DNA of 64,000 bases, taken from positions 1 to 64,000 of the IMG/VR virus record IMGVR_UViG_3300034073_003944. One strand, written 5' to 3'. The notes under the pieces were generated by a model that worked only from the letters and a program-made list of their open reading frames with translations, was not told the DNA's origin and did no database searches. Within the stretch, counting starts at the first letter, position 1. Every line of letters starts with the position of its first letter. The translations under genes were made by a program, and so were the position numbers. Below are positions 13,676 to 53,053 of this stretch, piece after piece. This DNA comes from a virus.

Positions 13676-15624
<1,949 letters not shown>

Positions 15625-22510: not shown

Positions 22511-22789
22511 ATGCCATTATCAAGTTCACAATATCCAGAAGTAGAATTGCCATCTCCGGTAATTACACAACAACAAGTAACATCCAGTGCTTATCAAATC
22601 ACCGATGTAAACGACAATCCTGTACAAAAAACAGTTGTTGCAAGAGTAACTGTAGGACCAGGTGCAATTAATTTCTTCACCGTATGGAGTGGAGAATCAT
22701 ACGATCAAATCGGTCAATGGACCGACAGTGATCTTGTAACTGCTGTAACTCCTTTGGTACAAGCAGCTTATCCACCAGTTACACCTTAA
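22511..22789 (+). CDS. Hypothetical 92-residue protein
   Basis: MPLSSSQYPEVELPSPVITQ, beta-rich with no charged helices (VARVTVGPGAINFFTVWSGE). It ends face to face with the - strand glycosyltransferase, overlapping by four bases. Its composition is like a virion accessory protein, but this is a guess. Confidence 0.5.
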   Translation: MPLSSSQYPEVELPSPVITQQQVTSSAYQITDVNDNPVQKTVVARVTVGPGAINFFTVWSGESYDQIGQWTDSDLVTAVTPLVQAAYPPVTP

Positions 22790-23754
22790 TCATTAAACAA
22801 TTTCAACCATTGTGCTGATACTACATCAGCACAATATTTTTTTGCATCTACACTACATTTTCTTTGTGTTGTTACATCACTAAAGAATTGTTTAATATCA
22901 TTTGTAACTGTATCGCTGTTCAATACTTCTTTTAAAGCACCATAACCATTAGTACAATAGATGTAAGGTGTGGCTTTGAGTATTTCTGCTAATACAGCAC
23001 TTACACAAAATGTTTCGGTCATAACATTGACATAAAACATGCCTTCCGATCTAGCTAATAGATCTACCACTTGTTTAAATGTAAGCGTATTCAAATAATT
23101 TACGCTATAGTTTGCTATACTAATATCATTCCGGGGATTGTCATAACCAGGCAAACAAACATTCAATGATTTATTTTTAAGTGACGGACTTTTATCCTTA
23201 AGATACATCCAATATTGTAATGTATAACCATAACCTTTCATCAAACTACTAGCATATACAAAATCTGATTTATTTTGTGGTAATTGATAATCATATACCC
23301 ACTGTGGAATCATAAAGTTTATAATATGTTTATTCCAATCGGATGGATATTGATCATTACTATATTTGCTTAGTGTGACTAACTTACATTTACCACTATC
23401 AATTAATTCATAGTAAGGTAGATTTTGTGGACTATTATTATCAGTCACCCAATGATAACAGTTCTTATGTTTGATTCTGCGTGGAATAATGCTATTACGA
23501 AGTAATATCAAATGATTACACTTAAATTGATATTGTTGAACGCTTACATTAGGCAAATAAAGTACACCGTTATATTCTTTTTCAACGGTTGTATTGTTTA
23601 AACAAATTACTTTCTTACCCAATTTAGCAAACTCTTCAAGCAAAAATATTGCTTGCGATTCACTGCCACCCATGCCTTTAGTCAATAAATCCTCACCTGT
23701 ATAAGGAACGCATACAGTGTCAAATAGTATTATATCAGCAAATAGTTCGTTCAT
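22786..23754 (-). CDS. GT-B type glycosyltransferase
   Basis: 322 residues. KGMGGSESQAIFLLEEFAKLGKKV (residues 27-50) is the N-terminal Gly-rich region of GT4-type enzymes, and ETFCVSAVLAEILKATPYIY matches their E-x7-E donor-site helix. It is the last gene of the long - strand late region, after another glycosyltransferase and a sulfotransferase, overlapping by four bases. Likely builds a glycan on virion or host polymer. Confidence 0.8.
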   Translation of the reverse strand: MNELFADIILFDTVCVPYTGEDLLTKGMGGSESQAIFLLEEFAKLGKKVICLNNTTVEKEYNGVLYLPNVSVQQYQFKCNHLILLRNSIIPRRIKHKNCYHWVTDNNSPQNLPYYELIDSGKCKLVTLSKYSNDQYPSDWNKHIINFMIPQWVYDYQLPQNKSDFVYASSLMKGYGYTLQYWMYLKDKSPSLKNKSLNVCLPGYDNPRNDISIANYSVNYLNTLTFKQVVDLLARSEGMFYVNVMTETFCVSAVLAEILKATPYIYCTNGYGALKEVLNSDTVTNDIKQFFSDVTTQRKCSVDAKKYCADVVSAQWLKLFND

Positions 23755-24566
23755 AACACTTTAAACATATCGTCATCTACAGTTTGTTGTGATGTTGGTG
23801 TTACAAAGTATTTGGATAATACTTCATTTTTAGTTGGTTGTTGAACTACACCTTGATTTTCAAACTTGGTTTTCCAATCAGCCAACCATTTTCTTACATC
23901 GCCCGTATAAGATTTATTACCTACATGTACCAAATCAATGTTTGTATCTAAAAACACTTTACCACCCATTTGTTGCCACTTGAATCCCATGATGATATCT
24001 TCACTTACAAAGTGATTATTTGCATTAATTGTACATGCACAAATATTCTTAGTTAATTCAGGAGCGCCTTCTTTTTCAGATACATAAAATTCATTTTCAT
24101 TTTCAAATAACTGTTTAACACAATTCTTTGATAACTTCAAGAAACCACATCCTAATCCATTTACTTCAAGTATACCGTTGTCGTCAGGTACTATATTGAA
24201 ATTACTCGCATTTTCTCCAAGTGCTTTAAAAGCATACAATTCTTCATCGTCATTCTTTTTACGATATGTACCACCAATCATATCTTTATCACTTAGAACT
24301 AACTTTACAAAATCAGATGGGTTCCAACCAATATCGCTGTCAATAAAGAACAATACATCCACAGCACTTTGATAAGCTACTCTAAAATAATCATTTCTAG
24401 CTCTTTGTATCAAACTATCAAAACAAAGAAAGTATGGTAAAACTTTGATGTTGTTTTGTTCACAGAGTGGTATGGTATTGATTAGACTGTCCATGAAACG
24501 GACATCAAATCTACCATCATAACTTGGTGCTGCTAGTAAAACTGTAATAGGTTTATTTTCGTTCAT
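23751..24566 (-). CDS. GT-A type glycosyltransferase (third copy)
   Basis: 271 residues. VLFFIDSDIGW (residues 71-81) gives the DxD motif after SLIQRARNDYF, followed by GGTYRKK. HFVSEDIIMGFKWQQMGGKVF is the catalytic-side block, and NIDLVHVGNKSY is a His motif shared with the enzymes at 9315 and 11118. Overlaps both neighbours by four bases. Confidence 0.78.
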   Translation of the reverse strand: MNENKPITVLLAAPSYDGRFDVRFMDSLINTIPLCEQNNIKVLPYFLCFDSLIQRARNDYFRVAYQSAVDVLFFIDSDIGWNPSDFVKLVLSDKDMIGGTYRKKNDDEELYAFKALGENASNFNIVPDDNGILEVNGLGCGFLKLSKNCVKQLFENENEFYVSEKEGAPELTKNICACTINANNHFVSEDIIMGFKWQQMGGKVFLDTNIDLVHVGNKSYTGDVRKWLADWKTKFENQGVVQQPTKNEVLSKYFVTPTSQQTVDDDMFKVL

Positions 24567-25387
24567 ATGTTGTAATTAAAAGCTTTATAAAACCAATTGT
24601 ATTTTTCTGTAATATAGTTGCAGTTGTGTCTGCCCAATACACTAAGATAATCTTCGGGTACCTGTTCAATTTTATTTCTTATTAAGTGATCGCCAAATGG
24701 TCTATAGAAGACATCATTTTCTTTGGTAAATTGAGCTATATTATTGAAATCGTGTTGGTAATATGGTATTTCAAGATAGTTGTATATTTTTCTTACTTCT
24801 TGTTCTGGATTTGCACTGAAGTCTTCAAACTTTATGAATAAGCACTTCTGTGCAATCTTTCTTACTATAACATCATATATCACATCAATAGGAGCACATA
24901 GTGGTGGTGCTACATTTAGATACATATCTACTCTTTTATCTACAGTAGTACCTTTCATTTCATTCCAGTTTTGCATGCCAGCGTCTAGGTGTTGATTGTC
25001 TCTAAACTTCTTTTCTAGACTGCTTACGATACTTCTTAGATCTCGTATCATTATGATAACTTTTGGATTGGGATCAAACCAATTTACGAAATCATATGTT
25101 ACACTCCAACCTCTACACTTATCTACAACATATTTTCTGTCAGTAACATTATTATAAAAACCATATAAAGCACTTTTACAAAATCCTTTGAATCCATTGT
25201 CCATGATCTTACTATCTTGTGCTTTGAATTCTATTGCGTTTGTATAGTTATTTTTTGCATTGAGCAATAGATCACAAAGACCGCTTGTTGGACTGCCGTA
25301 TATGTCTGGATTTTGAGCAAGCAAATTTTGCACGAGAGTTGAACCTGCGCGAGGCATGCTACTTTGGAAAAACACTTTTTCTACCAT
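24563..25387 (-). CDS. Sulfotransferase
   Basis: 274 residues. FFQSSMPRAGSTLVQNLLAQ (residues 6-25) is the 5'-phosphosulfate loop, with R13/G15/S16/T17, and IIMIRDLRSIVSSLEKKF (111-128) is the 3'-phosphate motif. CLFIKFEDFSANPEQEVRKIYNYLEIPY is the standard C-terminal helix region. It transfers sulfate from PAPS to an alcohol or amine, often on sugars or tyrosine. The CysC-like kinase at 8171 could supply PAPS. Directly upstream of two glycosyltransferases. Confidence 0.88.
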   Translation of the reverse strand: MVEKVFFQSSMPRAGSTLVQNLLAQNPDIYGSPTSGLCDLLLNAKNNYTNAIEFKAQDSKIMDNGFKGFCKSALYGFYNNVTDRKYVVDKCRGWSVTYDFVNWFDPNPKVIIMIRDLRSIVSSLEKKFRDNQHLDAGMQNWNEMKGTTVDKRVDMYLNVAPPLCAPIDVIYDVIVRKIAQKCLFIKFEDFSANPEQEVRKIYNYLEIPYYQHDFNNIAQFTKENDVFYRPFGDHLIRNKIEQVPEDYLSVLGRHNCNYITEKYNWFYKAFNYNI

Positions 25388-25430: not shown

Positions 25431-25847
25431 TTAACTCAAATTATTTGCGTCAATGAATATTTGATCAATTTGTTGACTCGTTAATCCTAACTCTGTACCT
25501 ATTTGTATAATAAGTGGATGATTTCTTTCTACTTGATTACCATACTCCCATTGTTGTACAGCTACTATTTTTTCAGTTCCTGTCAAATTATCTATCATTG
25601 ATTGTACATCATCAAATAAACCCATTATTTGTAGTTGTGCTCTTAATGACCAATTTGGAATGATTTGTGGTACAGGTGTTATTATTTGATTAATTACCCA
25701 TTGACAATCTTGCCATATACAATTCTGTGTTGCTGGATCGTATTGTGGTTGTGGAGTTTCTACCCAACCTTTTCTTGTCAATGTTTCTATAACGGCAGGA
25801 TCAGTTTCAGTTCTTAATTGACAATCGTATGTTAAAAATGTAATCAT
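25431..25847 (-). CDS. Tail-fibre-region hypothetical protein
   Basis: 138 residues. Trp/Gln-rich centre (NWSLRAQLQIMGLFDDVQSM) and an end (HPLIIQIGTELGLTSQQIDQ) resembling small proteins coded beside tail fibres in other phages. It might be a fibre chaperone or tip component; not assigned. Confidence 0.55.
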   Translation of the reverse strand: MITFLTYDCQLRTETDPAVIETLTRKGWVETPQPQYDPATQNCIWQDCQWVINQIITPVPQIIPNWSLRAQLQIMGLFDDVQSMIDNLTGTEKIVAVQQWEYGNQVERNHPLIIQIGTELGLTSQQIDQIFIDANNLS

Positions 25848-25869: not shown

Positions 25870-26586
25870 TCAAGAACAAGCAATTTTAAAAGTAAAAGCT
25901 GCCGACTTTTCATATCGTTTTCTTAAATCAACGGAAATAGATCCAAATACAGCAATATAACAAATACTTACCATTCCATACCAATTTTGACCCGTGCCAT
26001 GCCATCCTAGTCTATGTGTTAAATTTGTACCAGCGTTACCATTCCTTATTGTTGATGACAAAATATTTGGAACGCCAACCGATATGTTACCGGCAGTTAC
26101 ACCTGTATATCTACCATTTATGTTAACATCAGTTACGTTATTTGATGAGGAGTCTTGCATTTCTATTGCAGCAAATGGTTGAGTTGTTGTGAGAAATGTA
26201 TTTGTATAATAAGATAAAAATCCCTGACGAGGAAATCTAGTAACAAAACCATCAGTTGCTATGATTACATCAATAGTAATATGTACATAATTTGGAGATC
26301 TATTTAATTTACCAACTATAACATATGATTGATCAGCAGTTGTAGTTATTCCACTAGTACTTGTTAAAATAGTGTTAGTACCATTAAAATCTACCGCTGG
26401 ATTTCCGTTAATAAGTCTACTATAATATGTTGGTCTAACTGTTGCTTCGGTAAAATCAGTTGTTGTAGCTCTATTTGACCATGTTGTTAAAGCACTACCA
26501 TTACTTACTCCGGTTATAAATCTTGAATCTAGAACTATAATAGCACCTGAAGATTTTGCGTTTAAATGTCTATTTCTTCTATGCAT
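25870..26586 (-). CDS. ConA/LamG-like jelly-roll protein
   Basis: 238 residues. Beta-rich with GAIIVLDSRF, PAVDFNGTNTIL, SYVIVGKLNR and a C-terminal ISVDLRKRYEKSAA, the layout of a concanavalin-like lectin domain. It is less similar to the four other LamG-type genes in this window than they are to each other. A receptor-binding or virion decoration role is likely. Confidence 0.6.
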   Translation of the reverse strand: MHRRNRHLNAKSSGAIIVLDSRFITGVSNGSALTTWSNRATTTDFTEATVRPTYYSRLINGNPAVDFNGTNTILTSTSGITTTADQSYVIVGKLNRSPNYVHITIDVIIATDGFVTRFPRQGFLSYYTNTFLTTTQPFAAIEMQDSSSNNVTDVNINGRYTGVTAGNISVGVPNILSSTIRNGNAGTNLTHRLGWHGTGQNWYGMVSICYIAVFGSISVDLRKRYEKSAAFTFKIACS

Positions 26587-26592
26587 ATATTA

Positions 26593-29500
26593 TTACGCTG
26601 TTGTATAAGTTATTTCTACGCCTAATAATCTAGCGTCTACAGCTAAAGTATCACTTGCATTCGTCGCATCTCTATAAATTTCAAATATAATTGGTTTACT
26701 ATTAGCCAATGAACCGCTTATTGTAATTGCACTTGTTGCCGGACTTATGTGCATATCATATGCTTTAAGCAATGTATCTGTAGCTGTTTGACCTGTACCC
26801 AGATTGCCTGTAGAATTAAGTGTATCATCATCCGAATAGATTCTACCTCTTAATCCCCAAACAACTGCGCCTGAACCACCGTTGGCTGACCAATAGAATT
26901 TGCCTGTTACTGTACTGGAACCATTCCAATTATTTGGAAGTACTCGCATTACTTGTACATATTCAATTATACCTGCGTCAAAATCTAGAGTATCATAATT
27001 TACTCTAGCACTGCCTGTTAATTCTGTGCTATTTACACCGGACCCACTGAATGATCTTGGAATCATTTCGCCTGCACCTATCCAAATGTTTGAACTATTT
27101 GGAACAGTTTTCCATACAGTTTTTGTGCCTGTTGTATAAAGTACACTACCACTTGTACCAGCACTATTATTACCATCATAATAAGCACCGTTTAGTCTCA
27201 TACTACCCGATACTTGCAATTTTTGTGATGGTTTATTTGTACCTATACCTACTCTACTACCGCTTATAACGAAGTCATTGGCATTGTATTTACCCATGAA
27301 TATTCTATCATCACTCCAAACATCTACTACAGGCAGACCACTTACATCATTTACAGTGAATAGTGAACCTGACAATGTATCTGTAACATTGAAGAGTGTA
27401 CCTGTACCACCATCTGTTCTTAATACGCTTAAATTACTACCGCTTCTATATACTTGTAATTTAGCGGATAAGCTACCGGATACGCCTATACCTACGAAGC
27501 TACCGGTACTATGTTGCAATCCTTGACCAAAGGCACTACCACTTGCGAATATCAAGTTAGCTATATTTAATTGATTACTACCAGCAGGTTTTCCTGCGTC
27601 AATATTGTGTCCTATTATTATATTACTGTTGCCTGTCGTTATATTATCACCAGCATCAACGCCTACAGCTATATTTCGTTGACCACTTGTTAATGTACCT
27701 AAAGCGCCGTAACCGAATGCGTTGTTATCATTACCGGTCGTATTATTTACTAAAGAATTATATCCAAATGCACTATTAGCAATACCAATTGTATTAGCTT
27801 GTAATGCTTGATGTCCGAAAGCACTATTTTGTATACCCGTTGTATTACTTGCTAACGCTAAATAACCGAAAGCATTATTGTTATTGGTAGTATTATTTAG
27901 TAATGCATAGGCACCAAAAGCATTACTACGATTGCCGGATGAGTTATTATTTAACGCTTTATTACCAAATGCTGTATTAGCACCACCCGTTTTATTTAAT
28001 CTCAATGCGAAATAACCAAATGCACTGTTTAATCTACCACTTGTATTTTGGTAGAGTGCTTGATTTCCAAATGCACTATTTCTATTTCCAGTTGTATTAC
28101 TTGCTAAAGCATAATTACCGAAAGCATTATTATTATTTGTTATGTTATTATAAAGCGCTTTATAACCAAATGAATTATTAGCACTTCCACTTATATTTTT
28201 AAATCCAGACAGTCTTCCAAAACCATTATTACTTGATCCTAATACATTACTTGCAAGTGCTAAATGACCAAAAGCACTATTAATATTACCCGTTATATTA
28301 GCAATTAAACTACCATATCCAAACGCACTGTTTCTGGTTCCAATTGTATTGTTCTTTAATGCTAGATGACCAAACGCTGAATTTATACCAGTTGTATTAC
28401 TTGCTAATGCTCTATAACCGAAAGCATTATTATTATTTGTAGTATTATTCTTTAATGCTTCATAACCAAATGCACTGTTAAAATTACCGACTAAATTTGC
28501 TCTTAAAGCGTTTGTACCAAATGCACTATTTCTTGTACCACTTGTATTAAATATAGAAGCGTAATGACCAAATGCATTGTTGTCAACACCTGTTGTATTA
28601 TTAAGAAGAGCACTGTTACCAAATGCATTGTTTCTTACACCTGTTGTATTAACTTTTAATGATTGATAACCAAAAGCACTGTTAAAATTACCTATTGTAT
28701 TACTTGCTAATGCTTGATGACCAAATGCACTGTTTTTATAACCAGTTGTATTGCTTGCTAGAGCAAAGTAACCGAAAGCATTGTTATTGTTAGTGGTATT
28801 TGCTCTGAGAGCATACATACCAAATGCATTATTATTATTTCCAGCAGTATTTAATCTGAGAGCAGATAAGCCTATTGAATTATTATTATTACCCGTTAAA
28901 TTATCAAATTGTGATGCTCCACCTATAGCAATATTATATAATCCGGATGTGTGTTTATTTAAAGCATAAGCACCGAAAGCAGTATTATACCTACCAGTCG
29001 TGTTACTTGCTAACGCTCTGTGACCAAATGCACTATTATTATCTCCGGTTATATTATTTTGTAATGCTTGATGACCAAATGCACTATTAGCAGTACCAGT
29101 TGTATTGCTTGCTAATGCTCTATAACCAAATGCGTTATTATTGTTTGTGGTGTTATTATATAATGCTTGATGACCAAACGCATTATTTCTTACACCGATT
29201 TGATTACTTGTTAATGCTAAGTGACCGAACGCATTATTTTGTGTACCTGTAGTATTACTACCTAAAGCTTTATAACCAAATGCGTTATTGTTATCACCCG
29301 TTGTATTTACAACAAGACTCAACTCGCCGAATGCGTTGTTTCTAGAACCAATCGTGTTATCTCTTAAAGCAGCTAAACCAAAAGCATTGTTTCTTACACC
29401 CGCCGTATTATTTGTTAAAGCGGCATAACCAAATGCACTATTTCGGGTACCGATTGTATTGTCTTGTAACGCATAATTACCAAATGCTGTATTATATCTA

Positions 29501-32500
29501 CCACTTGTATTACTTGCTAATGCAAAACTACCAAATGCACTATTATTTGCAGCTGTATTAGTATAGAGTGCTTTATAACCGAAAGCACTGTTACTACTGC
29601 TTATTGTATTCGCGTTAAGTGCTCTATGTCCAAATGCACTATTTCTTTGACCGGTAGTATTATTTTTTAACGCGTAGTAACCGAATGCGTTATTATTGCT
29701 TGTAGTATTGTTATATAAAGCAGCGGTACCAACAGCATTATTATTATTACCTACAGTATTATTTTGTAAAGCCGATCTACCTATTGCAATATTATTACGA
29801 CCAGTTGTATTAAATCTTAAAGCAGCTACGCCAAATGCATTATTTTGATAACCAAATGTGTTGCTTGCTAATGCTAATATACCAAATGCATTGTTATTAT
29901 TACCAGTAGTATTGCTTATTAAAGCTTTATAACCAAAAGCACTATTACCAGCACCAGTCGTATTATTTTGTAATGTTAAATGACCAAAGGCACTGTTTTG
30001 TACACCAGTAGTATTGCTTGCTAGAGCATAACTACCAAATGCATTGTTAGCATTTGTCGTATTACTACTTAAAGCACTTCTACCAAATGCGTTATTATTA
30101 CTACCAATTGTATTATCTGTTAAAGCTCTTCTGCCAAATCCATTGTTATTTATACCGGAAATATTATCTCTCAAAGCCCAATCACCAAAAGCATTGTTGC
30201 TGTCACCAATTGTATTGTTTTGTAAAGCACCATTACCAAATCCGTTGTTTAGTATACCAGTAGTATTATTTTGTAAAACACCATTACCAAATGCATTGTT
30301 GTTTCTTCCGATCGTATTATTTCTTAATGCGGCATAACCAAATGCATTGTTTTGTGTACCGGTTGTATTTGATCTTAAAGCAAATGCACCGAATGCACTA
30401 TTTCCTCCCGCTATATTCGTATATAGTGCTCCATAACCGAATGCACTGTTACTACTGCTTATTGTATTAGCTTGTAATGCTCTATGACCAAAAGCGCTGT
30501 TACGATATCCTGTTGTATTACTTCTCAAAGCATAAGCACCAAACGCATTATTATTATTCGTAGTATTATTTTGTAAAGCTACATTACCAAATGCGTTGTT
30601 ATTGTTACCTATACTATTACTATTTAAAGCACCATTGCCAAATGCATTATTATATTGACCACTTGTATTATTTGTTAAAGCTTGTGTACCAAACGCGTTA
30701 TTTCTTGTACCCGTTGTATTATTTACTAAAGCTCTATCACCAAAAGCATTATTTCTAACACCGATTGTATTACTTGCTAGAGATTGATAACCAAATGCAC
30801 TATTTTGTACACCGGTTGTATTATTTTGTAATGCTTGATGACCAAAAGCACTATTAGCAGTACCAGTTGTATTGCTTGCTAAAGCATAAAATCCGAAAGC
30901 ATTATTATTGTTTGTGGTATTTGCTTGTAAAGCATTTCTACCAAAAGCATTGTTACTACCACCGGTTTGATTTGATGCTAATGCTAATGTACCAAAAGCA
31001 TTATTATTAGCAGCGTCAACAATATTATGACCGGCTCTATAACCAAATGCATTGTTATTGTTACCAATAGTAACACTATATAATGTTCTATAACCAAATC
31101 CACTGTTATTTACACCGGTTGTATTAAATCTTAATGTATTTACACCAAACGCATTATTTCTCGCACCTATCGTATTACTTTGTAATGCATTTATTCCGAA
31201 AGCATTATTATTACTACCTACAGTATTTTTATACAGTGCATAATGACCGAACGCTGCATTTTGTACACCACTTGTACTATTTCTAAGTGCTGAATTACCA
31301 AATGCGTTATTGACTATACCCGTGGTATTACTTGCTAAAGCTAAATAACCGAAAGCATTATTTCCAAAACCAATTGTATTGTTTTGCAATGCTTTATGAC
31401 CGAAAGCACTATTAACATTACCAGTTGTATTACTTGCTAATGACAAGTGACCGAAAGCACTGTTACCATGACCTGTTGTATTATTTGTTAATGACTTATA
31501 ACCAAAAGCATTATTGTTGTTGGTTGTATTAGCTACTAAAGCATAAAATCCAAAGGCATTGTTATTATTACCCGATACATTATTTACTAAAGTTTGTGAA
31601 CCAACTGCTGTGTTGCCATTACCAACTGTATTTGTTACCAAAGCGAAATTGCCTAGAGCTGTATTTTTTATACCAATGGTATTTGCATATAAAGCTCCTC
31701 GTCCAAATGCGATATTGTTGTTACCCGATGTATTTAGTCTTAAAGCATGACTTCCAAATGCACTGTTCCAATATCCGGTTGTATTAAGTTGTAATGCTAA
31801 ATATCCAAATGCAGCATTTTCATATCCGGTTATATTATTTGCTAATGCTAAACTACCAAATGCACTGTTACTATATCCTCTATTTGTATAAAGTGCTAAA
31901 TAACCGAAAGCACTGTTACTGCCACTGATTGTATTTGCATTAAGTGCTCTGTGACCAAATGCACTATTTTTAGTTCCGGTTGTATTGCTTCGGAGAGCCA
32001 TATAACCAAACGCGTTATTATTACTCGTTGTATTATTATATAATGCTTGAAAGCCTACAGCGTTATTATTATTACCAATTGTATTATTAGTTAAAGCACT
32101 TCTTCCTACAGCAACATTTCTAATACCACTTGTATTAAATACTAAAGCGTTTGTACCTAATGCTGTATTATTTGTTCCCGTTGAATTTTGTTGTAATGCT
32201 TGAAGACCTACAGCAACATTATAATTACCGAATGTATTAAACATTAAAGCCGCTTGACCAAATGCACTGTTAAAATTACCGGTAGTATTACTAGCTAAAG
32301 CTATGTCACCGAATGCACTGTTTTGTTTACCTCTATTTGTATATAGTGCTTTATAACCAAATGCACTGTTACTGCTACTAATTGTATTAGCTTGTAACGC
32401 TCTATGACCAAATGCACTGTTTCTATGTCCGGTTGTGTTACTTGCTAATGCAAAATTACCGAAAGCGTTATTACCACTTGTTGTATTATTTAAAAGAGTT

Positions 32501-34887
32501 TGATAACCGAATGCATTATTATTGTCACCAACTAAATTATTATTTAGAGATTGCATTCCAAATGCATTATTTAATACACCGGTTGTGTTACTAAATAATG
32601 CATTTAATCCTACAGCAGTATTTCGCCCTCCGGTTGTATTGTTAAATAAAGCTGCACTTCCTATTGCTACATTATATTTGCCGAATGTATTTTTATATAA
32701 AGTAGTGCTCCCAAATGCGACATTAGCTCTGCCTGTAGTATTATTTTTTAACGATTGATTGCCGAATGCGCTATTAGAATCTCCTTTGTTCGTATAAAGT
32801 GATTTATAACCGAAAGCGCTATTACTACCACTGATAGTATTTGCTCTTAATGCTTGATGACCGAAAGCACTGTTTTGTGCACCAGTTGTATTGCTTGCTA
32901 AAGCCAAATAGCCAAAAGCATTATTGTTACTAGTTGAATTATTTCTTAAAGCATAAAAACCGAATGCATTATTTCTATTAACAGGCGTACCCAATCCTAA
33001 AGCACCAACACCAACAGAAACATTGTTAATACCTGATGTATTAGAATATAAAGAACCTACACCAACAGCTGTATTTGACGCTCCTGTAGTATTTTTATTT
33101 AAAGCATTATTACCAAACGCACTATTATTTGTACCAATCGTATTAAACATTAACGATTTATAACCAAACGCACTATTACCACCACCTGTTGTATTTTTAT
33201 TTAAAGCATAATAACCAAATGCATTATTATTATTACCTATTGTATTATTATTTAAAGCGCCGTATCCAAATGCATTATTTTTATAACCCGAAATATTACT
33301 TGTAAGAGCTAAATTACCAAATGCATTGTTATAATTACCACTTGTATTATTCTTCAGTGATTGATTACCGAAAGCATTGTTAGATATACCAGTTGTATTG
33401 CTTGCTAGAGCAAGATAACCGAATGCACTGTTAAAATTACCTATTGTATTATTCTTCAATGCTTGAAGACCAAATGCACTATTAGCTACACCTGTTGTAT
33501 TACTTGCTAAAGCATAACTACCAAAAGCACTATTATTATTTGTAAGATTATTATACAAAGCATAAATACCGAATGCGTTATTACGAAACCCCGATACATT
33601 TTTAGTTAATGATTTTGCACCAAATGCTGTATTTGAACCGCCTGTACGATTGAGTCTTAATGCGAAATAACCGAATCCGCTATTGAAAGTACCACTTGTA
33701 TTTTGATATAATGTTTGATGGCCAAATGCAGAATTAACTGCGCCTGTTGTATTACTTGCTAGTGCTAAATAACCGAAAGCATTATTACTGTCACCTGTGT
33801 GTTTACTTAAAGCGTAAAATCCAAATGCATTGTTTCTATTACCAATTAAATTATATTGTAAAGCATTTCCACCAAATGCATTATTTCTAACGCCACTCGT
33901 ATTTCTTCTTAAAGCACCAACGCCAAATGCACTATTAACATTACCAGTTGTATTGCTTGCTAAAGCTATATAACCAAAAGCGCTATTACCTTGACCAATC
34001 GTATTATTTAGTAATGTTTTGTGGCCAAATGCACTGTTGCTTATTCCAGTTGTATTGCTTGCTAACGCTAGATAACCGAAAGCATTATTAGCATTTGTAG
34101 TGTTGTTTAGTAAAGCACCGTGCCCAAATGCGTTGTTATTATTACCTCCTAAATTAGCTTGTAATGTATCAACTCCGAATGCGTTATTGTTTACTCCAGT
34201 TACATTTACTTTTAATGCATAAGCACCGAAAGCGTTGTTAAAATTTGCATTGGAACTTGCTAATGCTGCGGATCCAAATGCTGAATTTAAAATACCAGAT
34301 GTATTTGTTATCAAACTTTGATGTCCCACAGCAGTATTTGCATAACCTGTAGTATTACCACTTAATGCTTGTCTACCAACTGCGGTATTTGCATAACCTG
34401 TAGTATTGTTATACATTGCATAACTACCGAAAGCACTATTACTATTACCAGTTGTATTGTTGTATAGAGTGCCTCTACCAAATGCTGTATTTAATGTACC
34501 ACCTGTATTAAAATTTAAAGCACCAGCGCCTACAGCAGTATTGCTTATTACAACACCACCACCTCTACCAACTCCTATACCTTGAATTACAGCAGATTGA
34601 CTTACATATAAATTTCCTTGTACTGATAATTTAGAACCGGGACTTGTTGTACCTATGCCGATATTACCACCGGTTTCATACATTACGCTATTGCCAATAG
34701 AATTGGCAGCCGTAAACTTAGGAATATAATTTGTTGTACCCGCTATATTTGTGGTTACTATACTACCACTGAAGCTTCCCGTAAAACTTTTCGCTTCTAC
34801 ACTGTTCTCAAACCTTACAAAGCTACTGCTTACAGTGATATTACCGCTGCTTGTTATAAAGCTATTTTTTATTTGAATTTTAGCCAT
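26593..34887 (-). CDS. Giant repeat tail-fibre protein
   Basis: About 2,764 residues from MAKIQIKNSF; a TTG start 12 bases upstream is possible. The N-terminal 115 residues have a FTGSFSGS strand block and one GGNIGIGTTSPGSKLSV module. Roughly 135 copies of a 17-residue repeat (N-[NS]-AFGxxAL-xxNTTG) follow, then about 330 residues with two more GIGT-like modules and a beta-rich C-terminal domain that probably trimerises or binds receptor. The repeat resembles YadA-head-like left-handed beta-rolls, so a long trimeric rod is expected. ATATTTATA lies 14-22 bases upstream. Confidence 0.85.
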   Translation of the reverse strand: MAKIQIKNSFITSSGNITVSSSFVRFENSVEAKSFTGSFSGSIVTTNIAGTTNYIPKFTAANSIGNSVMYETGGNIGIGTTSPGSKLSVQGNLYVSQSAVIQGIGVGRGGGVVISNTAVGAGALNFNTGGTLNTAFGRGTLYNNTTGNSNSAFGSYAMYNNTTGYANTAVGRQALSGNTTGYANTAVGHQSLITNTSGILNSAFGSAALASSNANFNNAFGAYALKVNVTGVNNNAFGVDTLQANLGGNNNNAFGHGALLNNTTNANNAFGYLALASNTTGISNSAFGHKTLLNNTIGQGNSAFGYIALASNTTGNVNSAFGVGALRRNTSGVRNNAFGGNALQYNLIGNRNNAFGFYALSKHTGDSNNAFGYLALASNTTGAVNSAFGHQTLYQNTSGTFNSGFGYFALRLNRTGGSNTAFGAKSLTKNVSGFRNNAFGIYALYNNLTNNNSAFGSYALASNTTGVANSAFGLQALKNNTIGNFNSAFGYLALASNTTGISNNAFGNQSLKNNTSGNYNNAFGNLALTSNISGYKNNAFGYGALNNNTIGNNNNAFGYYALNKNTTGGGNSAFGYKSLMFNTIGTNNSAFGNNALNKNTTGASNTAVGVGSLYSNTSGINNVSVGVGALGLGTPVNRNNAFGFYALRNNSTSNNNAFGYLALASNTTGAQNSAFGHQALRANTISGSNSAFGYKSLYTNKGDSNSAFGNQSLKNNTTGRANVAFGSTTLYKNTFGKYNVAIGSAALFNNTTGGRNTAVGLNALFSNTTGVLNNAFGMQSLNNNLVGDNNNAFGYQTLLNNTTSGNNAFGNFALASNTTGHRNSAFGHRALQANTISSSNSAFGYKALYTNRGKQNSAFGDIALASNTTGNFNSAFGQAALMFNTFGNYNVAVGLQALQQNSTGTNNTALGTNALVFNTSGIRNVAVGRSALTNNTIGNNNNAVGFQALYNNTTSNNNAFGYMALRSNTTGTKNSAFGHRALNANTISGSNSAFGYLALYTNRGYSNSAFGSLALANNITGYENAAFGYLALQLNTTGYWNSAFGSHALRLNTSGNNNIAFGRGALYANTIGIKNTALGNFALVTNTVGNGNTAVGSQTLVNNVSGNNNNAFGFYALVANTTNNNNAFGYKSLTNNTTGHGNSAFGHLSLASNTTGNVNSAFGHKALQNNTIGFGNNAFGYLALASNTTGIVNNAFGNSALRNSTSGVQNAAFGHYALYKNTVGSNNNAFGINALQSNTIGARNNAFGVNTLRFNTTGVNNSGFGYRTLYSVTIGNNNNAFGYRAGHNIVDAANNNAFGTLALASNQTGGSNNAFGRNALQANTTNNNNAFGFYALASNTTGTANSAFGHQALQNNTTGVQNSAFGYQSLASNTIGVRNNAFGDRALVNNTTGTRNNAFGTQALTNNTSGQYNNAFGNGALNSNSIGNNNNAFGNVALQNNTTNNNNAFGAYALRSNTTGYRNSAFGHRALQANTISSSNSAFGYGALYTNIAGGNSAFGAFALRSNTTGTQNNAFGYAALRNNTIGRNNNAFGNGVLQNNTTGILNNGFGNGALQNNTIGDSNNAFGDWALRDNISGINNNGFGRRALTDNTIGSNNNAFGRSALSSNTTNANNAFGSYALASNTTGVQNSAFGHLTLQNNTTGAGNSAFGYKALISNTTGNNNNAFGILALASNTFGYQNNAFGVAALRFNTTGRNNIAIGRSALQNNTVGNNNNAVGTAALYNNTTSNNNAFGYYALKNNTTGQRNSAFGHRALNANTISSSNSAFGYKALYTNTAANNSAFGSFALASNTSGRYNTAFGNYALQDNTIGTRNSAFGYAALTNNTAGVRNNAFGLAALRDNTIGSRNNAFGELSLVVNTTGDNNNAFGYKALGSNTTGTQNNAFGHLALTSNQIGVRNNAFGHQALYNNTTNNNNAFGYRALASNTTGTANSAFGHQALQNNITGDNNSAFGHRALASNTTGRYNTAFGAYALNKHTSGLYNIAIGGASQFDNLTGNNNNSIGLSALRLNTAGNNNNAFGMYALRANTTNNNNAFGYFALASNTTGYKNSAFGHQALASNTIGNFNSAFGYQSLKVNTTGVRNNAFGNSALLNNTTGVDNNAFGHYASIFNTSGTRNSAFGTNALRANLVGNFNSAFGYEALKNNTTNNNNAFGYRALASNTTGINSAFGHLALKNNTIGTRNSAFGYGSLIANITGNINSAFGHLALASNVLGSSNNGFGRLSGFKNISGSANNSFGYKALYNNITNNNNAFGNYALASNTTGNRNSAFGNQALYQNTSGRLNSAFGYFALRLNKTGGANTAFGNKALNNNSSGNRSNAFGAYALLNNTTNNNNAFGYLALASNTTGIQNSAFGHQALQANTIGIANSAFGYNSLVNNTTGNDNNAFGYGALGTLTSGQRNIAVGVDAGDNITTGNSNIIIGHNIDAGKPAGSNQLNIANLIFASGSAFGQGLQHSTGSFVGIGVSGSLSAKLQVYRSGSNLSVLRTDGGTGTLFNVTDTLSGSLFTVNDVSGLPVVDVWSDDRIFMGKYNANDFVISGSRVGIGTNKPSQKLQVSGSMRLNGAYYDGNNSAGTSGSVLYTTGTKTVWKTVPNSSNIWIGAGEMIPRSFSGSGVNSTELTGSARVNYDTLDFDAGIIEYVQVMRVLPNNWNGSSTVTGKFYWSANGGSGAVVWGLRGRIYSDDDTLNSTGNLGTGQTATDTLLKAYDMHISPATSAITISGSLANSKPIIFEIYRDATNASDTLAVDARLLGVEITYTTA
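27600..34540 (-). repeat. Coding 51-bp tandem repeat array (NNAFGYxALxxNTTG)
   Basis: About 6.9 kb of imperfect 51-bp units with occasional 48-bp units. A larger pattern is visible: blocks containing ANTISxSNSAFGY then LYTN recur near 29600, 30450, 31915, 32365 and 32825, so groups of units were copied together. Confidence 0.9.
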
Positions 34888-34912: not shown

Positions 34913-37900
34913 CTACATTTTTCTTATCATCGCTTTTATAATATAACTTTCACCTTCACCAGCTTCCAACGCTTGAGCTATAACTTTACCAAATAAATCC
35001 TTCTTGAATATAGATCCTCGTTTTACAGCCTTACCATGACCCTTTTTCTTGCTGGTAACTATATAATCACCTATTTCTACCTTGCCAGTTACTAATATAG
35101 GTTCAGCACCCAATACGATAGGTTCATCTCTACCATTTTTAGCTACACCCATTACCAATTCATCTTCATCAATTTCACAAGGCGCACATCCATTGTACTT
35201 CCATACAACAATTGTACCGGTAGCCAATTGAGCTAAATCTCTAGTTCTTAAATTAGCTTCTAATATACCACCTACAGTGGTTTGTACGACATATATATCA
35301 CTAAATCTATTGCTTGGACCACCTAAAGCATATACACCATCACCTACAGGAGCAATACTACCACTTACTTGTAATCTAAATGATGGACTTGTTGTACCTA
35401 TACCAACATTACCGTTACTATCAACATTAACTCTTCTATTACCTTGACCGTCGGCAAGTATGATGTTGTTAGCTAATGTTGCACTTAAACTTGTTACATT
35501 CGCACCGAGAATTGTATTATAATTACCCGTGGTAATTCCTCTACCTGTATTAAATCCGAGTATTGTATTTGTTCTACCAGTTGTTACATCATAACCAGAT
35601 GATTGACCTACCGCGGTATTTTCCAAACCAGTTGTAGTACTTCTTAATGAATAAGCACCAAATGAACTGTTGTCAGCACCTGTAGTTTGACTAAACAAAG
35701 CTTCTCTACCGAAAGCACTATTTTTTGAACCTATTGTATTGTTTTGTAAAGTGGTATGACCGAAAGCACTATTATTTGTTCCGGTTGTATTGCTTGCTAA
35801 TGCTAAATAACCAAATGAATTGTTATTGTTTGTGGTGTTATTATACAGAGCTTTTAATCCAAAAGCGTTGTTATTACTACCTATTGTGTTAAGCTGTAAT
35901 GTTTGATGACCGAATGCGGCGTTATTTACACCCGATGTATTACTTCTTAAAGCATAATAACCGAAAGCATTATTATTTGCACCGGTAGTATTATTTCTTA
36001 AAACACTTGAACCAAATGCATTGTTTTTAGCACCCGTACTATTTGTATACAATGCTCTAAAACCAAATGCATTATTATTTCCACCTGTAGCTGCGCCTAG
36101 AGCAGAACCTCTTAAAGCTTCTGTACCAAATGCGTTGTTAGCTGCACCCGCTGTATTATTATACAGTGTTCTAAATCCGAAAGCATTATTTGAACCCGCG
36201 TTGATATTTTTCAAAGATCCATAACCAAATGCGCAAATATTGTTAACACTTCCTGATTGATACATCGCAAATGCACCAAAAGCACTATTATTGAGTCCAC
36301 CGCTTCTTCTTTGAAACGCTCTGTAACCAAATGCACTGTTACCATAACCGGTTGTATTACTTGCTAATGCAACATGTCCAAATGCACTGTTTCTAAACCC
36401 GGTTGTATTACTTGCTAGTGTTTGATGACCAAATGCACTGTTATTTACGCCGGTTGTATTAGCAGTTAAAGATTGATATCCGAAAGCATTGTTGTTATTT
36501 GTAGTATTATTTCTCAAAGCATTTCTACCGAATGCGTTGTTGTTACTACCGATTAAATTTTCGGTTAAAGCTGCAGATCCAAAAGCTGTATTTAAAGTAC
36601 CGGAAGTATTTTTGCTTAATGCATATGCGCCAAAAGCGCTATTTCTTATACCCGTTGTATTGCTTATTAATGCATTATGACCAAATGCACTATTATAATT
36701 ACCAAATGTATTATTATTTAATGCTCTATGACCAAATGCACTATTAAATGTACCAGTTGTATTGTTCGCTAATGCCGAATAACCGAAAGCATTATTATTG
36801 TCTGTTGTATTATTATAGAGAGCTTTAAATCCAAATCCATTATTATTGTTACCAATAGTATATGATAGTGCTCTGTAACCAAATGCATTATTATAATTAC
36901 CATTACCACCCGTGGATAAAGCCTTATATCCAAAAACATTATTGCCAGTACCACCACCGCCATATAACGCATAATTGCCAAATGCGTTATTTTTAATGTT
37001 ACCAGCCCCACCTTTTATAGCACTAAATCCAAACGCATTATTATGTTCGCCATTTTGATTGTTATTTAAAGTAAAATTACCAAATGCATTATTTTTTTGA
37101 CCGGATGAATTATATTGTAAAGCATAATAACCAAATGCATTATTATGATCGCTTTGATTGCTATACAAAGCACTTACACCAAATGCATTGTTGTTTAGGC
37201 CAATAAGATTTCTATTTAAAGCACTAAATCCAAAAGCACAATTATTTCTACCACTAGTATTGCTGGCTAATGCTAAATCACCAAATGCACTGTTTTTATA
37301 ACCAGTTGTATTATTTATAAATGCACTATTACCTACAACTGTATTAGTAACTATATCACCACCACCTCTACCGATTCTTACACCATCAATTATGCTAGTT
37401 GCACTGCTACCACTAACATGGAAAATTGCTGCTGGAGATGTAGTACCAATACCAATTCTACTACCACTTTCAAATATAGGCGTTACAGTATCACCTATAG
37501 TAGTACTACTTGTAAATTTAACAATTGTATTGGTTGTACCACTTACAGCTACACTTGTACCACTCGTACCAGCACTGCCAGATGTACCTGAACTACCAGA
37601 TGAACCGCTTGTACCTGATGATCCGGAAGATCCACTTGTACCGCTGCTGCCAGATGTACCTGAACTTCCACTCGTACCTGATGATCCGGATGAACCACTT
37701 GTACCTGATGATCCGGAAGATCCGCTTGTACCAGATGAACCACTTGTACCGCTGCTGCCAGATGTACCTGAACTTCCACTAGTACCCGACGATCCGGATG
37801 AACCACTCGTACCACTACTACCACTTGTACCACTCGTACCACTACTACCACTTGTACCGCTGCTACCAGATGATCCATTTTCACCACTTGTTCCACTTGA

Positions 37901-38911
37901 ACCAGATGTTCCGCTTGTACCGGAAGATCCAGATGAACCACTGCTACCAGATGATCCACTGCTACCGGAACTACCACTTGTACCACTGCTGCCAGATGAT
38001 CCATTTTCACCACTTGTTCCACTTGATCCGGATGTTCCACTTGATCCGGAAGAACCACTACTTCCACTTGATCCGGATGTACCACTTGATCCACTACTAC
38101 CACTAGTACCATTTTCACCACTGCTGCCTGATGTACCACTTGAACCACTAGAACCGGATGTTCCACTTGATCCGGAAGAACCACTACTTCCACTTGTACC
38201 ACTTTCACCACTACTACCACTACTACCATTTTCACCCGATGTACCGCTGGTACCATTACTACCTGTAACTTGTCTTAAACCACCTCTTGTGGCTAATGCG
38301 TATCCACTTATAGGACTTATGAATGTAAATCTTGCGTGGTTATTATCTAATAATGTGGTTGTAGATGGTAAGATATATTGATCTGAAGTATTGAATGCTT
38401 GTACAATTACTTCTTTTGCACCTAAACTATGTGTAAAGTTCCATACACTTTGATTTGTAAAACTTTGTACGATACTATTACCGAAATTGGTTGCGTAACT
38501 TGATGAATATGTGAATAGTGCCCAACTACTTGTTATAGGGTAAGTGCTACCCGTAGTGAGTGTTGTACCACCACTACTAGCATTTAATGCATAACTTGCT
38601 GTAAGTGCCCAACTACTTGTTATGGGATACAAGCTACCAGTATTTAATGTAGTTCCACCATTTAAAGCATATATAGCCCAACTCGCTGTAATTGGATATG
38701 TACTACCTGTATATAAGGTACCGCCTATTGTTCTTTTACCTACATTATTATTACCGTCCAGTGTTAAAAACTCTGTATTTGAAGAAACTGTGGGTATATT
38801 GGTTAATTTAACACGGGAAGATGTAACTCCCAACAATACATTCAATGATCCGGATAAAAAAAGTGATCCTGTGACTGTTGGATTTAATATTTGCGGTGAG
38901 TCTATTTTCAT
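34913..38911 (-). CDS. Composite tail-fibre protein (collagen-like plus AFG repeats)
   Basis: 1,332 residues. The N-terminal region has three copies of the TGSxYPITxSWAL module, then a sandwich-like domain (VWNFTHSLGAKEVIVQAF). A GSSGTSG collagen-like array follows (about residues 218-450), then about 36 AFG 17-residue repeats and one GNVGIGTTSP module. The end (ELVMGVAKNG, PILVTGKVEIGDYIVTS, KVIAQALEAGEGESYIIKA) resembles the C-terminal fold found on many fibre proteins. Probably a trimeric fibre with a rod and tip. Confidence 0.85.
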   Translation of the reverse strand: MKIDSPQILNPTVTGSLFLSGSLNVLLGVTSSRVKLTNIPTVSSNTEFLTLDGNNNVGKRTIGGTLYTGSTYPITASWAIYALNGGTTLNTGSLYPITSSWALTASYALNASSGGTTLTTGSTYPITSSWALFTYSSSYATNFGNSIVQSFTNQSVWNFTHSLGAKEVIVQAFNTSDQYILPSTTTLLDNNHARFTFISPISGYALATRGGLRQVTGSNGTSGTSGENGSSGSSGESGTSGSSGSSGSSGTSGSSGSSGTSGSSGENGTSGSSGSSGTSGSSGSSGSSGSSGTSGSSGTSGENGSSGSSGTSGSSGSSGSSGSSGSSGSSGTSGTSGSSGTSGENGSSGSSGTSGSSGTSGTSGSSGTSGSSGSSGTSGSSGTSGSSGTSGSSGTSGSSGSSGTSGSSGSSGTSGSSGTSGSSGTSGSSGSSGTSGSSGSSGTSGSAGTSGTSVAVSGTTNTIVKFTSSTTIGDTVTPIFESGSRIGIGTTSPAAIFHVSGSSATSIIDGVRIGRGGGDIVTNTVVGNSAFINNTTGYKNSAFGDLALASNTSGRNNCAFGFSALNRNLIGLNNNAFGVSALYSNQSDHNNAFGYYALQYNSSGQKNNAFGNFTLNNNQNGEHNNAFGFSAIKGGAGNIKNNAFGNYALYGGGGTGNNVFGYKALSTGGNGNYNNAFGYRALSYTIGNNNNGFGFKALYNNTTDNNNAFGYSALANNTTGTFNSAFGHRALNNNTFGNYNSAFGHNALISNTTGIRNSAFGAYALSKNTSGTLNTAFGSAALTENLIGSNNNAFGRNALRNNTTNNNNAFGYQSLTANTTGVNNSAFGHQTLASNTTGFRNSAFGHVALASNTTGYGNSAFGYRAFQRRSGGLNNSAFGAFAMYQSGSVNNICAFGYGSLKNINAGSNNAFGFRTLYNNTAGAANNAFGTEALRGSALGAATGGNNNAFGFRALYTNSTGAKNNAFGSSVLRNNTTGANNNAFGYYALRSNTSGVNNAAFGHQTLQLNTIGSNNNAFGLKALYNNTTNNNNSFGYLALASNTTGTNNSAFGHTTLQNNTIGSKNSAFGREALFSQTTGADNSSFGAYSLRSTTTGLENTAVGQSSGYDVTTGRTNTILGFNTGRGITTGNYNTILGANVTSLSATLANNIILADGQGNRRVNVDSNGNVGIGTTSPSFRLQVSGSIAPVGDGVYALGGPSNRFSDIYVVQTTVGGILEANLRTRDLAQLATGTIVVWKYNGCAPCEIDEDELVMGVAKNGRDEPIVLGAEPILVTGKVEIGDYIVTSKKKGHGKAVKRGSIFKKDLFGKVIAQALEAGEGESYIIKAMIRKM
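35480..37350 (-). repeat. Second AFG 51-bp repeat array
   Basis: About 36 units of the same 17-residue repeat as in the giant fibre gene, with more irregular units (GGAGNIKNNAFG, GGTGNNVFG). Shared units between adjacent genes suggest recombination or gene conversion. Confidence 0.85.
37560..38260 (-). repeat. Collagen-like GSSGTSG coding array (1)
   Basis: Continuous Gly-X-Y triplets made only of Ser, Thr and a few Glu-Asn (GENGSSG), about 230 residues. Gly at every third position fits a triple-helical rod. The reverse strand carries a long open frame with no independent support. Confidence 0.9.
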
Positions 38912-39719: not shown

Positions 39720-42700
39720 TTACGCGCTTAAGTTACCAAACATATACCATTCATTGGTACCTACTTTAACCAAACTTGCTACACCATATCTAGCATTTAT
39801 TTTATACCAGTTGTTTGCTGTTCTTAATTGAACACCGCCACCTGAACTACCTGTTATTGTGGTTTGACCTGCACCATATTGTACAATATCTACTTTGGTA
39901 CCTACTTTGAATGCTACTTGTGCATTTGTGGGTACATTCACCGTATTAGCTGTAGCTACATTCATTTCAATAAGTTTACTTGCATCTGAAAGTGACATTG
40001 TATAGTTACCTGTTCTTCTATTGAATGTTGCATAATCTGTAAGTGAACCGCTTACTTCTAATTTAGATGATGGATTTGTTGTACCTATACCAATTTTACT
40101 TCCGGTTTCAAATATAATACTATTACCTACAGCTGTTGTACTTGTAAATTTAGCGACATAGTTGGTTGTACCTGATACTGTACCACTTCCACCACCGCCT
40201 GCGCTAGCGAGTGCGTATGAAGCGGTACCAAAGAATCTGCCTTTACCATTGGTTGTAAACATGTTACTACCAGATACTCTAGTAGCATATAAACTACCAT
40301 TCACTTCTAATGGATAAGCAGGACTCGTCGTTCCTATACCTACATTACCATTGCTAATTATAGACAATTTATAAGAATTGTTAGTATATAGATGTAATGG
40401 ATTAGCTCCTATTGTACCCACTTCAAATGTTGTTGATGAAGCTAATATACTACCAATTCTCGTACCAGATACACCCATATCAAAATAAGGACTTTGACCT
40501 GTGTTTGAATTGATTTCAATACCGGCACTTGAACCTGATATACCTAAAACTTTACCGTAATTTCTAGCAAAAATATCAGGACTACTTGTACCTATACCTA
40601 CATTACCACCAAACACTTTATTAAATGATGTTTGTAAACTATCTTCGGATATACTTGTTGCAAATGTTGTAATAGATCCACTATCAAATGTAGAATACCG
40701 GCTATTACCAAAAACATCGGTTTGTATAGTCCAATTGCTATCTTGCAAATAACCATCATCACCATTTAGTTCAATATAAAGATTTCCAGCAGTTGCACTA
40801 GAAGCAGATACATACGAATTTACAACGACATTACCAACTTTTTCAACGGTTGTTAAATTAGTATTAAAATTATATGTATAACCTGAATATCCAACATAAT
40901 CTAAATAATTTACACCCGAAGCATTATCTGCCATTGCTATGGCTTTTACTTTAACAATAAAATCAGCACCGGCACCTGCTTTTGTAAACGGTATAGTTAT
41001 TCTTATAGGATTATTTGTAGTTACAGTATTGACTTTACTATAAATAATTGTTGAATCTAAAGTCATCAATCCAGCAACATGTAATTTGTTTTTTGGACTT
41101 GTTGTTCCTATACCTATATTACCATCACTTTTAATATATAACATCGCTGCGGTTGTTTCAGCGTCGGCAGAAAATCTTATATTACTTGTTCCACCATAAC
41201 CGGTTTTTATATTCAAATCGTTATCAGATCCATGATTAACACTATTATAATATCCATACCACCCTTTAAATGTACCGGATGCATTCATTAAACCTAAATG
41301 AGCATTTACACCCTTTATGTTAATTGTACCTACAGATCCCGCACCAGTACCTACAACTTGAAGTAAAGTACTTGGACTACTTGTACCTATACCAACATTA
41401 CCATCACTGGCAACCCTCATTTTTTCAGTACCATTAGTTCCCATCGTCATAATGTTTGAAGCGTTTAATACCAAATTATTACCCATTCTAATTTGAGTAT
41501 TTGTGACGGGCCCTTGAATTGTACTTTCGTCTTCTGATAATTTTATTGCAGCTACTCCACCGGAATTTGATTGAACTATATGTAATTTAGCACTCGGACT
41601 TGTTGTGCCTATACCAACACTACTACCTGTAAGAGTCATTACTATAGTACTCGCATTACCAGTATAGAAATTTAATCCTCTATCAGCACTACCAATCGTT
41701 TGTATATATGACATCTTGGTAGTATCAGAACCCATTTCAACAGAATAAGAATTACTACTATTACCAGATATTCGTATAGCTTTTTGACCAGCACCATATA
41801 TTTGAAGACCACCACCAGCTATAGTTGGACTTGTTGTACCTATACCTATATTACCGCCTGTTGTTGATGTTAAATTAATATTACCACTTCCATTATAAAT
41901 GTATAGAGTTTCATCACTCGCAAACCTAATTGCTGCACCATCATGTTGTCCTATCCAAAATTCTCTGCCTAGAGTTGTGATTAATGCCGATCCACCAGCA
42001 ACTGACGCTGCATTATAAGAACCACCTCCGATTGATGGTATATATCTGATATAGCTAGTATTATCTTCTACAGTCAAAGCAAATAAATCACTTATTACAG
42101 TTCCCGTATATACATTTAATTTAGCAGCAGGACCTGTTGTACCTATACCTACATTGCCATCAGCAGCAATTCTTAACCTTTCACTACAAGTTCCACCGGA
42201 TGTAGTGTAAAACTTCATATGACTTGGTGCACCACTTGCAGTAGATGAACTTACTACCAAAAAGGCACTTCCAGTCAAATTATTTGGCGCGCCATTTAAT
42301 GGTCCCAGTGTACCAATATTACCAAATGCTATAGTATTGTTACCATTAGCAGCATTTGCAACGAACAAATTACCTTTTAAATCTAATTTTGTAGCAGGAC
42401 TTGTTGTACCTATACCAACATTACCACCACTAGTAACGCGTAACTTTTCACTAAATGTTCCCGATGAATTTGCTGTATGTATTCTAAATGTGCCACTTTC
42501 GTCACCTGCCGTACTATTTTCTTTTACACCATCAATTGCAACGAAATGTGCTACAGCACTATTAGAAGTTTTGTATCCCTTGAACAGTATTGCACCACCA
42601 ACATTTGTAGTAGCATTTGCTGTATCTCTCAATACCAATGTACCAGCGTTTGTGGATGAATAAGTTTTTCCAGTTGCACCTACTACATCCAAAATACATT

Positions 42701-43736: not shown

Positions 43737-43750
43737 ATATTATAAATATT

Positions 43751-52180: not shown

Positions 52181-53053
52181 TTACTTAATTAAAGTCCAAC
52201 CTTTATGAGATTTTATATGTCCTTTCTTTAAATTAGATACTCCAGATCTAGACAATTTAAATTCAGTATAAAATTCATAAGCTGTACAAATTCGTGTTAT
52301 ATTTAAATTTGAGTTATAAAACTTGTAAATTGTTTTATCATACGATGCATTATTTTCTCCCATATATAAACCAATTCTACTATCACTTAATTTTTTCCTA
52401 ATTTCATTTGAATACTTTTTTCCTTTATTTGCAAGTCCTATTTTCCGTTTATGATCTTCGCTTAGTTTTTTTCCTTTATTAAAAATATGTAGTTTTAATT
52501 TAGCAGCAGCTGTTAGTTTTATTCCTTTATGAACTTCTGATAACTTTAATCTTATTTCTTCAGTTACTTTTCGGCCCGTATTTGCTTTACTAATTTTTTG
52601 TTTACTATACTCACTTAATTCACCACCTCGAGCGTCATAATTGAGATTGTAACTCATTTTAGATTCAACCTTAACTATATCTAAGTATTTTTGTTCTACC
52701 AATAATAATTCTTCGCTTTTGACAAGTTCTATTATTTGAAACTCAAAATTAGATTCGCCGTGTTTATTCCAAGCATTTTGTAAAAAATCATTGGGATGTT
52801 TATTTAATCGTAATACTCTTCTATGTTCATCCCATCTTTTTTGAATATTTTTAGAACTGCCTACATAATATTTTCCATCTATTTTATTAATTATCCTGTA
52901 AATCCCGCTTTTTATCGTAGTATCGTTCAAGATTTTTTCGCTTAATGTCTGTTCTGTTTCTAAGATAGTATCGCATTTGTCGTTCTCTTCTTTCTGCGAT
53001 AAGTTCTTCAATTGGCCTGTTAAGTTTTTTTCTTCCCATAAATTATTATTCAT
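52181..53053 (-). CDS. GIY-YIG homing endonuclease with NUMOD repeats
   Basis: 290 residues. SGIYRIINKIDGKYYVGSS (residues 49-67) holds the GIY...YVG motif, with Arg73 and Glu downstream (KRWDEHRR, VEQKYLD). The C-terminal half has repeated DNA-binding NUMOD3-like segments (SKANTGRKVTEEIRLKLSEV, HKRKIGLANKGKKYSNEIRK). A free-standing mobile endonuclease like SegE/F. It sits between two virion genes with no sign that it splits them. Confidence 0.92.
   Translation of the reverse strand: MNNNLWEEKNLTGQLKNLSQKEENDKCDTILETEQTLSEKILNDTTIKSGIYRIINKIDGKYYVGSSKNIQKRWDEHRRVLRLNKHPNDFLQNAWNKHGESNFEFQIIELVKSEELLLVEQKYLDIVKVESKMSYNLNYDARGGELSEYSKQKISKANTGRKVTEEIRLKLSEVHKGIKLTAAAKLKLHIFNKGKKLSEDHKRKIGLANKGKKYSNEIRKKLSDSRIGLYMGENNASYDKTIYKFYNSNLNITRICTAYEFYTEFKLSRSGVSNLKKGHIKSHKGWTLIK

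Follow-up and report, generated by a model that had tools for sequence, protein, structure and literature searches.

Fibre gene A, at 26593-34887 on the minus strand, likely specifies a fibre carried on the virions of a tailed phage, with a predicted anchoring N-terminus, a solenoid shaft, and a host-binding tip. This reading draws on its sequence and on structure models. The gene lies in the window, a stretch of 64,000 nucleotides that belongs to a 173-kb tailed-phage record. The open reading frame runs from an ATG at 34887 to a stop at 26593, and an in-frame TTG is present four codons upstream of the ATG. The gene can be divided as follows.

26593-34887, minus strand: fibre gene A, 2764 amino acids, composed of an N-terminal region, a 137-unit AFG array, a neck, and a predicted jelly-roll tip.
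34543-34887, minus strand: N-terminal non-repeat region and array cap, amino acids 1-115, AGTTNYIPKF..NIGIGTTSP..GRGGG.
27625-34542, minus strand: AFG array, amino acids 116-2421, an unbroken run of 137 units predicted to form a beta-solenoid shaft.
27100-27624, minus strand: neck between the array and the tip, carrying a VGIGTNKPSQKLQVSG motif read from the sequence.
26596-27099, minus strand: C-terminal tip, 168 amino acids, modelled as a jelly roll that resembles CBM6/22/35 folds.

The 137 consecutive units were located by a unit-profile scan and have the consensus N-[NST]-A-F-G-x-x-A-L-x-x-N-T-T-G-x-x. Successive units are spaced by 17 residues in 113 cases and by 16 residues in the other 23, with no other spacing. 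Positions N1, A3, G5, L9, and N12 are each conserved in at least 87% of units, and an N-x-S/T triplet is present at unit position 12 in 85 of the 137. Shuffled copies of the protein yield a mean of 1.5 units and a maximum of 5. The original prediction of about 135 repeats was thus close, and its almost 7 kb of a single repeat type agrees with an array of 6.9 kb. The N-terminal region and cap (amino acids 1-115) are common to many viral fibres.

The shaft was modelled with AlphaFold2 from 76 aligned segments, each 14 coils long, taken from the window and related loci. The model is a regular beta-solenoid with two short strands per coil, a mean pLDDT of 90, and a pTM of 0.85; a single kind of repeat makes up the whole input, and only two of the five models exceed a pLDDT of 85. 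Because repeat-only modelling of a single chain can look too regular, the model is taken as support and not as proof. It has 85 significant matches in a viral structure library, including the putative proximal tail fibre of phage P-SSM2, Caudovirales chaperone-domain proteins, and giant-virus proteins.

Sequence relatives point the same way. Gene A matches PHROGs 23837 and 6002 (E = 0 for both) and 4636 (E = 5.5e-247). Its PHROG matches include virion structural and tail spike families, and the profile match spans the repeats. The AFG repeat also occurs in annotated tail fibres or spikes of phages P-SSM2, SPO1, and HTVC112P, in giant viruses, and in Bacteroidota. Collagen stretches before the array and a Peptidase_S74 fibre chaperone after it are found among relatives. 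The prediction of a fibre protein with a repetitive beta-solenoid is supported by the model together with the tail fibre and tail spike annotations of relatives. Phage fibres of this kind are already known; gene A is a very large example, among the longest, with a fold that has no solved structure. No Pfam family describes the AFG repeat, and no paper describing it was found in the open-access literature, the scope of the search, subscription papers lying outside it. As a separate observation, five Bacteroidota genome contigs (L128, L131, L133, L134, and L139) carry AFG arrays, some with ends resembling S74 or secreted proteins.

The C-terminal region of gene A, used as a lone query, found no relatives in viral contigs. 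A search with an alignment that included two distant tips placed relatives in 61 viral loci. In the fibres examined, these relatives form the extreme C-terminus, ending within about 14 residues of it, and follow varied shafts. The 168-residue tip is modelled as a jelly roll (pLDDT 89, pTM 0.87) whose PDB neighbours include Eph ligand-binding domains, CBM35, CBM6, CBM22, CBM11, and a K2-2 tailspike. A modular C-terminal tip is supported by its sharing among fibres with other shafts and by its predicted fold. Because the model resembles carbohydrate-binding modules, the tip is a putative host-binding domain, for which a surface glycan is the most likely ligand. No Pfam match, to Peptidase_S74 or any other family, was found in amino acids 2421-2764. 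In this gene A is unlike most long-array relatives; the chaperone is present in L046, L095, and L088.

Taken as a fibre, the protein would be anchored or joined to the particle by its N-terminal 115 residues. The 137 coils of 16-17 residues would pile up as a stiff beta-solenoid shaft, in which three chains probably run in parallel, and the jelly roll would form the tip. Beta-strand spacing is usually 0.48 nm, and with that rise assumed per coil the shaft would measure about 66 nm. The predicted very long rod needs to be qualified by this figure.

Attachment to the tail is more likely than attachment to the head, judging from the annotated relatives. The gene order around gene A does not separate the two. 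A head fibre would be a capsid-attached whisker that binds loosely to surfaces or to glycans in the medium. The head and packaging category takes in two of the PHROGs that match, and the array gene of the related contig G001 follows a probable capsid and portal block, although the roles of these proteins are assigned without a PHROG match. The annotated relatives, however, are mostly named tail fibres or tail spikes, and in other contigs tail, baseplate, and tail fibre families are represented among the genes that lie upstream of arrays. A head fibre is therefore considered unlikely, and a tail fibre is preferred.

The units of gene A have a higher-order pattern. Similarity between units peaks at lags of 18, 17, and 9, the highest value having p = 0.0004 when unit order is permuted. 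The 16-residue units are also distributed more regularly along the array than expected by chance (p = 0.003). An ANTIS..SNSAFGY..LYTN cassette is present five times, at units 32-35, 41-44, 50-53, 79-82, and 96-99. Successive copies are 453, 453, 1467, and 858 bp apart. Five copies had been predicted at spacings near 450 bp and multiples of it; the number and two of the spacings agree, but neither of the remaining spacings is an exact multiple. Much the same cassette is found in L010 and L090, which are different viral contigs, and it is therefore old or exchanged.

At the DNA level the array is diverged. The best pair of 450-nucleotide blocks is 73% identical, and the longest exact repeat is 35 nucleotides. 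Where residues are identical between units, synonymous codon identity is 1.04 times the expectation from codon usage. Agreement this near to chance, together with the diverged blocks, indicates that recent duplication neither produced the array nor remodelled it.

Array lengths were compared among the fetched array ORFs, a sample biased by the searches, in which the median array has 24 units. Three distinct arrays are longer than that of gene A, with 186, 163, and 157 units. Near-identical contigs have equal unit counts: 186 in two, 39 in four, and matching counts of 30, 20, 19, 16, 9, and 7. The argument from equal counts is weakened by the possibility that a single sample was assembled more than once and gave rise to some of these contigs. 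Contigs L092 and L095 have 186 and 157 units, despite 93-98% identity over the genes before the fibre. Few blocks of the two arrays correspond (for example, units 139-157 and 59-77, at 95% identity), and their C-termini differ. The differences in unit number and ends in this pair indicate that arrays have been exchanged over longer times.

These data bear on the proposal that the array is a contingency device, in which rapid change of repeat number by slippage or homologous recombination tunes the reach of the fibre. The higher-order pattern and the variation in unit number between related phages are in its favour. Against it, long identical repeats are absent, synonymous sites are near saturation, and near-identical contigs share their counts, with the caveat given above. 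We consider such a device improbable. The predicted change of length by ongoing recombination is unsupported in gene A, given its codon identity, its best block pair, and the equal counts. On longer timescales, unit number does vary among relatives, and these are mosaic. In the preferred reading, array length would be inherited stably in the short term, whereas in the long term related phages would alter it by exchanging blocks and ends.

The original prediction also likened the repeat to a YadA head, and a related reading is that a trimeric autotransporter-type adhesin of the YadA family was captured by a phage. The AFG repeat has a similar rhythm of Asn, Gly, and hydrophobic positions, and two YadA-type heads (BoaA 3s6l and CbpF 9gh4) appear with a ryegrass ice-binding protein among the weak PDB fold matches of the shaft, which we take to be mostly left-handed solenoid families. 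None of the fold matches is significant (best E at least 0.045, TM at most 0.31). Neither the array sequence nor a profile made from it matched any PDB sequence, and Pfam YadA_head reached one of the 76 array segments, at E = 0.26. The coil of YadA-type heads has about 14 residues, whereas the AFG unit has 17. No outer-membrane anchor was found at the C-terminus of gene A, where the predicted jelly-roll tip lies instead. The likeness to YadA is not established, and capture of such an adhesin is very unlikely. That the array is an assembly artefact, joining short reads from several loci, is scarcely credible even for a metagenomic record with repeats that are hard to assemble, since the DNA differences between units suffice for read placement, the frame is open across 8.3 kb, and two assemblies of a relative's 186-unit array agree at 100% identity.

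At least four large fibre genes, gene A among them, are grouped together here. The neighbours of gene A are listed below.

34913-38911, minus strand: companion fibre B, 1332 amino acids, with a collagen-like stretch, 35 AFG units, and a C-terminal domain.
39720-48205, minus strand: two further fibre genes of 1338 and 1484 amino acids with NIGIGTTSP motifs, the second also collagen-like.
25870-26586, minus strand: small protein directly downstream of gene A, 238 amino acids, no family match.
25431-25847, minus strand: 138-amino-acid protein, phrog_6034.
22786-25387, minus strand: a sulfotransferase gene and a pair of putative glycosyltransferase-like genes.

Fibre B adjoins gene A, and its 35 AFG units had not been part of the original prediction. 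Its C-terminal domain has no clear Pfam family. The phrog_6034 protein is, by its position, a possible fibre assembly helper. Two stretches of the window (42111-42428 and 35385-35636) have 84-88% DNA identity to fibre genes of viral contigs L091 and L012, which suggests exchange of fibre pieces. A GIY-YIG-like protein, recognised by sequence motifs, is located at 52181-53053 (minus strand) inside the structural gene block.

The sulfotransferase and glycosyltransferase-like cassette recurs beside AFG fibres in four other contigs, L088, L089, L091, and G002, at 45-74% identity. L177 is also listed for this arrangement, and the carrier phages are otherwise dissimilar. The candidate capsid and portal proteins of G001, a close relative of G002, were not found in this genome, so close kinship does not explain the shared fibre module. 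Linkage of the sulfotransferase to AFG arrays as a general rule was rejected; most of its homologues stand without an array nearby. For this reason, modification of the fibre by the neighbouring enzymes is a guess, and decoration of the Asn-Thr-Thr rows of the shaft by the sulfotransferase and glycosyltransferases is speculative.

The phage genome encodes a T4-like DNA polymerase, a clamp loader, a ribonucleotide reductase, and a tape measure. The polymerase is nearest to that of Microcystis phage Mel-JY01 (44%), in which no AFG match was found. At 13676-15468 (minus strand) of the window, an ammonium transporter gene (PF00909) overlaps by 4 nucleotides a gene for a 112-amino-acid PII nitrogen regulator, whose best match in the PDB has E = 6e-50. 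This amtB-glnK pair is possibly host-derived. The rest of the genome (L142-L144) contains many sugar-nucleotide and glycosyltransferase-like genes, judged from N-terminal sequences, and these suggest a large glycan pathway. A further gene (L141:3471-4259, minus strand) has a prepilin-type N-terminus. N-termini of this kind are common in Verrucomicrobiota and their relatives, and the gene is a possible hint of the host.

Among the single-chain fibre shafts seen here, the one made of the AFG repeat in gene A is one of the longest. The repeat recurs in phages, giant viruses, and bacteria, yet it lacks both a Pfam model and a solved structure. Naming the repeat and fixing its geometry would make fibre length readable from sequence. 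The 186- and 157-unit pair is a concrete case of exchange of shaft and ends in otherwise closely related phages. More tentatively, the AFG solenoid may be an unclassified shaft family of phages, giant viruses, and bacteria, whose long arrays act as platforms for swapping coil blocks and tips; this wider reading is doubtful. If it is true, closely related phages would change reach and receptor together.

Among known systems, the tail spike and putative T4-like proximal tail fibre of Prochlorococcus phage P-SSM2 (PSSM2_298, Q58M57) shares the 17-residue repeat (tblastn 32%) and matches the fold of the shaft (TM 0.82). Tail genes surround it, and 26 units were found compared with 137 in gene A. 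The tail spike gp2.52 of Bacillus phage SPO1 has the same repeat type, but its reading frame, roughly 490 residues long, holds only about 8 units, and its host is Gram-positive. The putative tail fibre gp48 of Pelagibacter phage HTVC112P also has the repeat, in 28 units, with a glycosyltransferase gene directly downstream. The long-array contigs L092/L093 (186), L046 (163), and L095 (157) share the repeat, the length class, and the cap motif before the array; they differ in the collagen stretch that precedes the array, in their C-termini, and in the S74 chaperone of L046 and L095. The S74 and FhaB-like proteins of Tupanvirus and Bodo saltans virus belong to eukaryotic viruses and carry other domains, although the Tupanvirus solenoid reaches a TM of 0.94 over a segment. 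YadA-type heads resemble the AFG array in their stacked coils and conserved Asn, Gly, and hydrophobic positions, but differ in their shorter coil and have no detectable sequence match or significant fold match to it.
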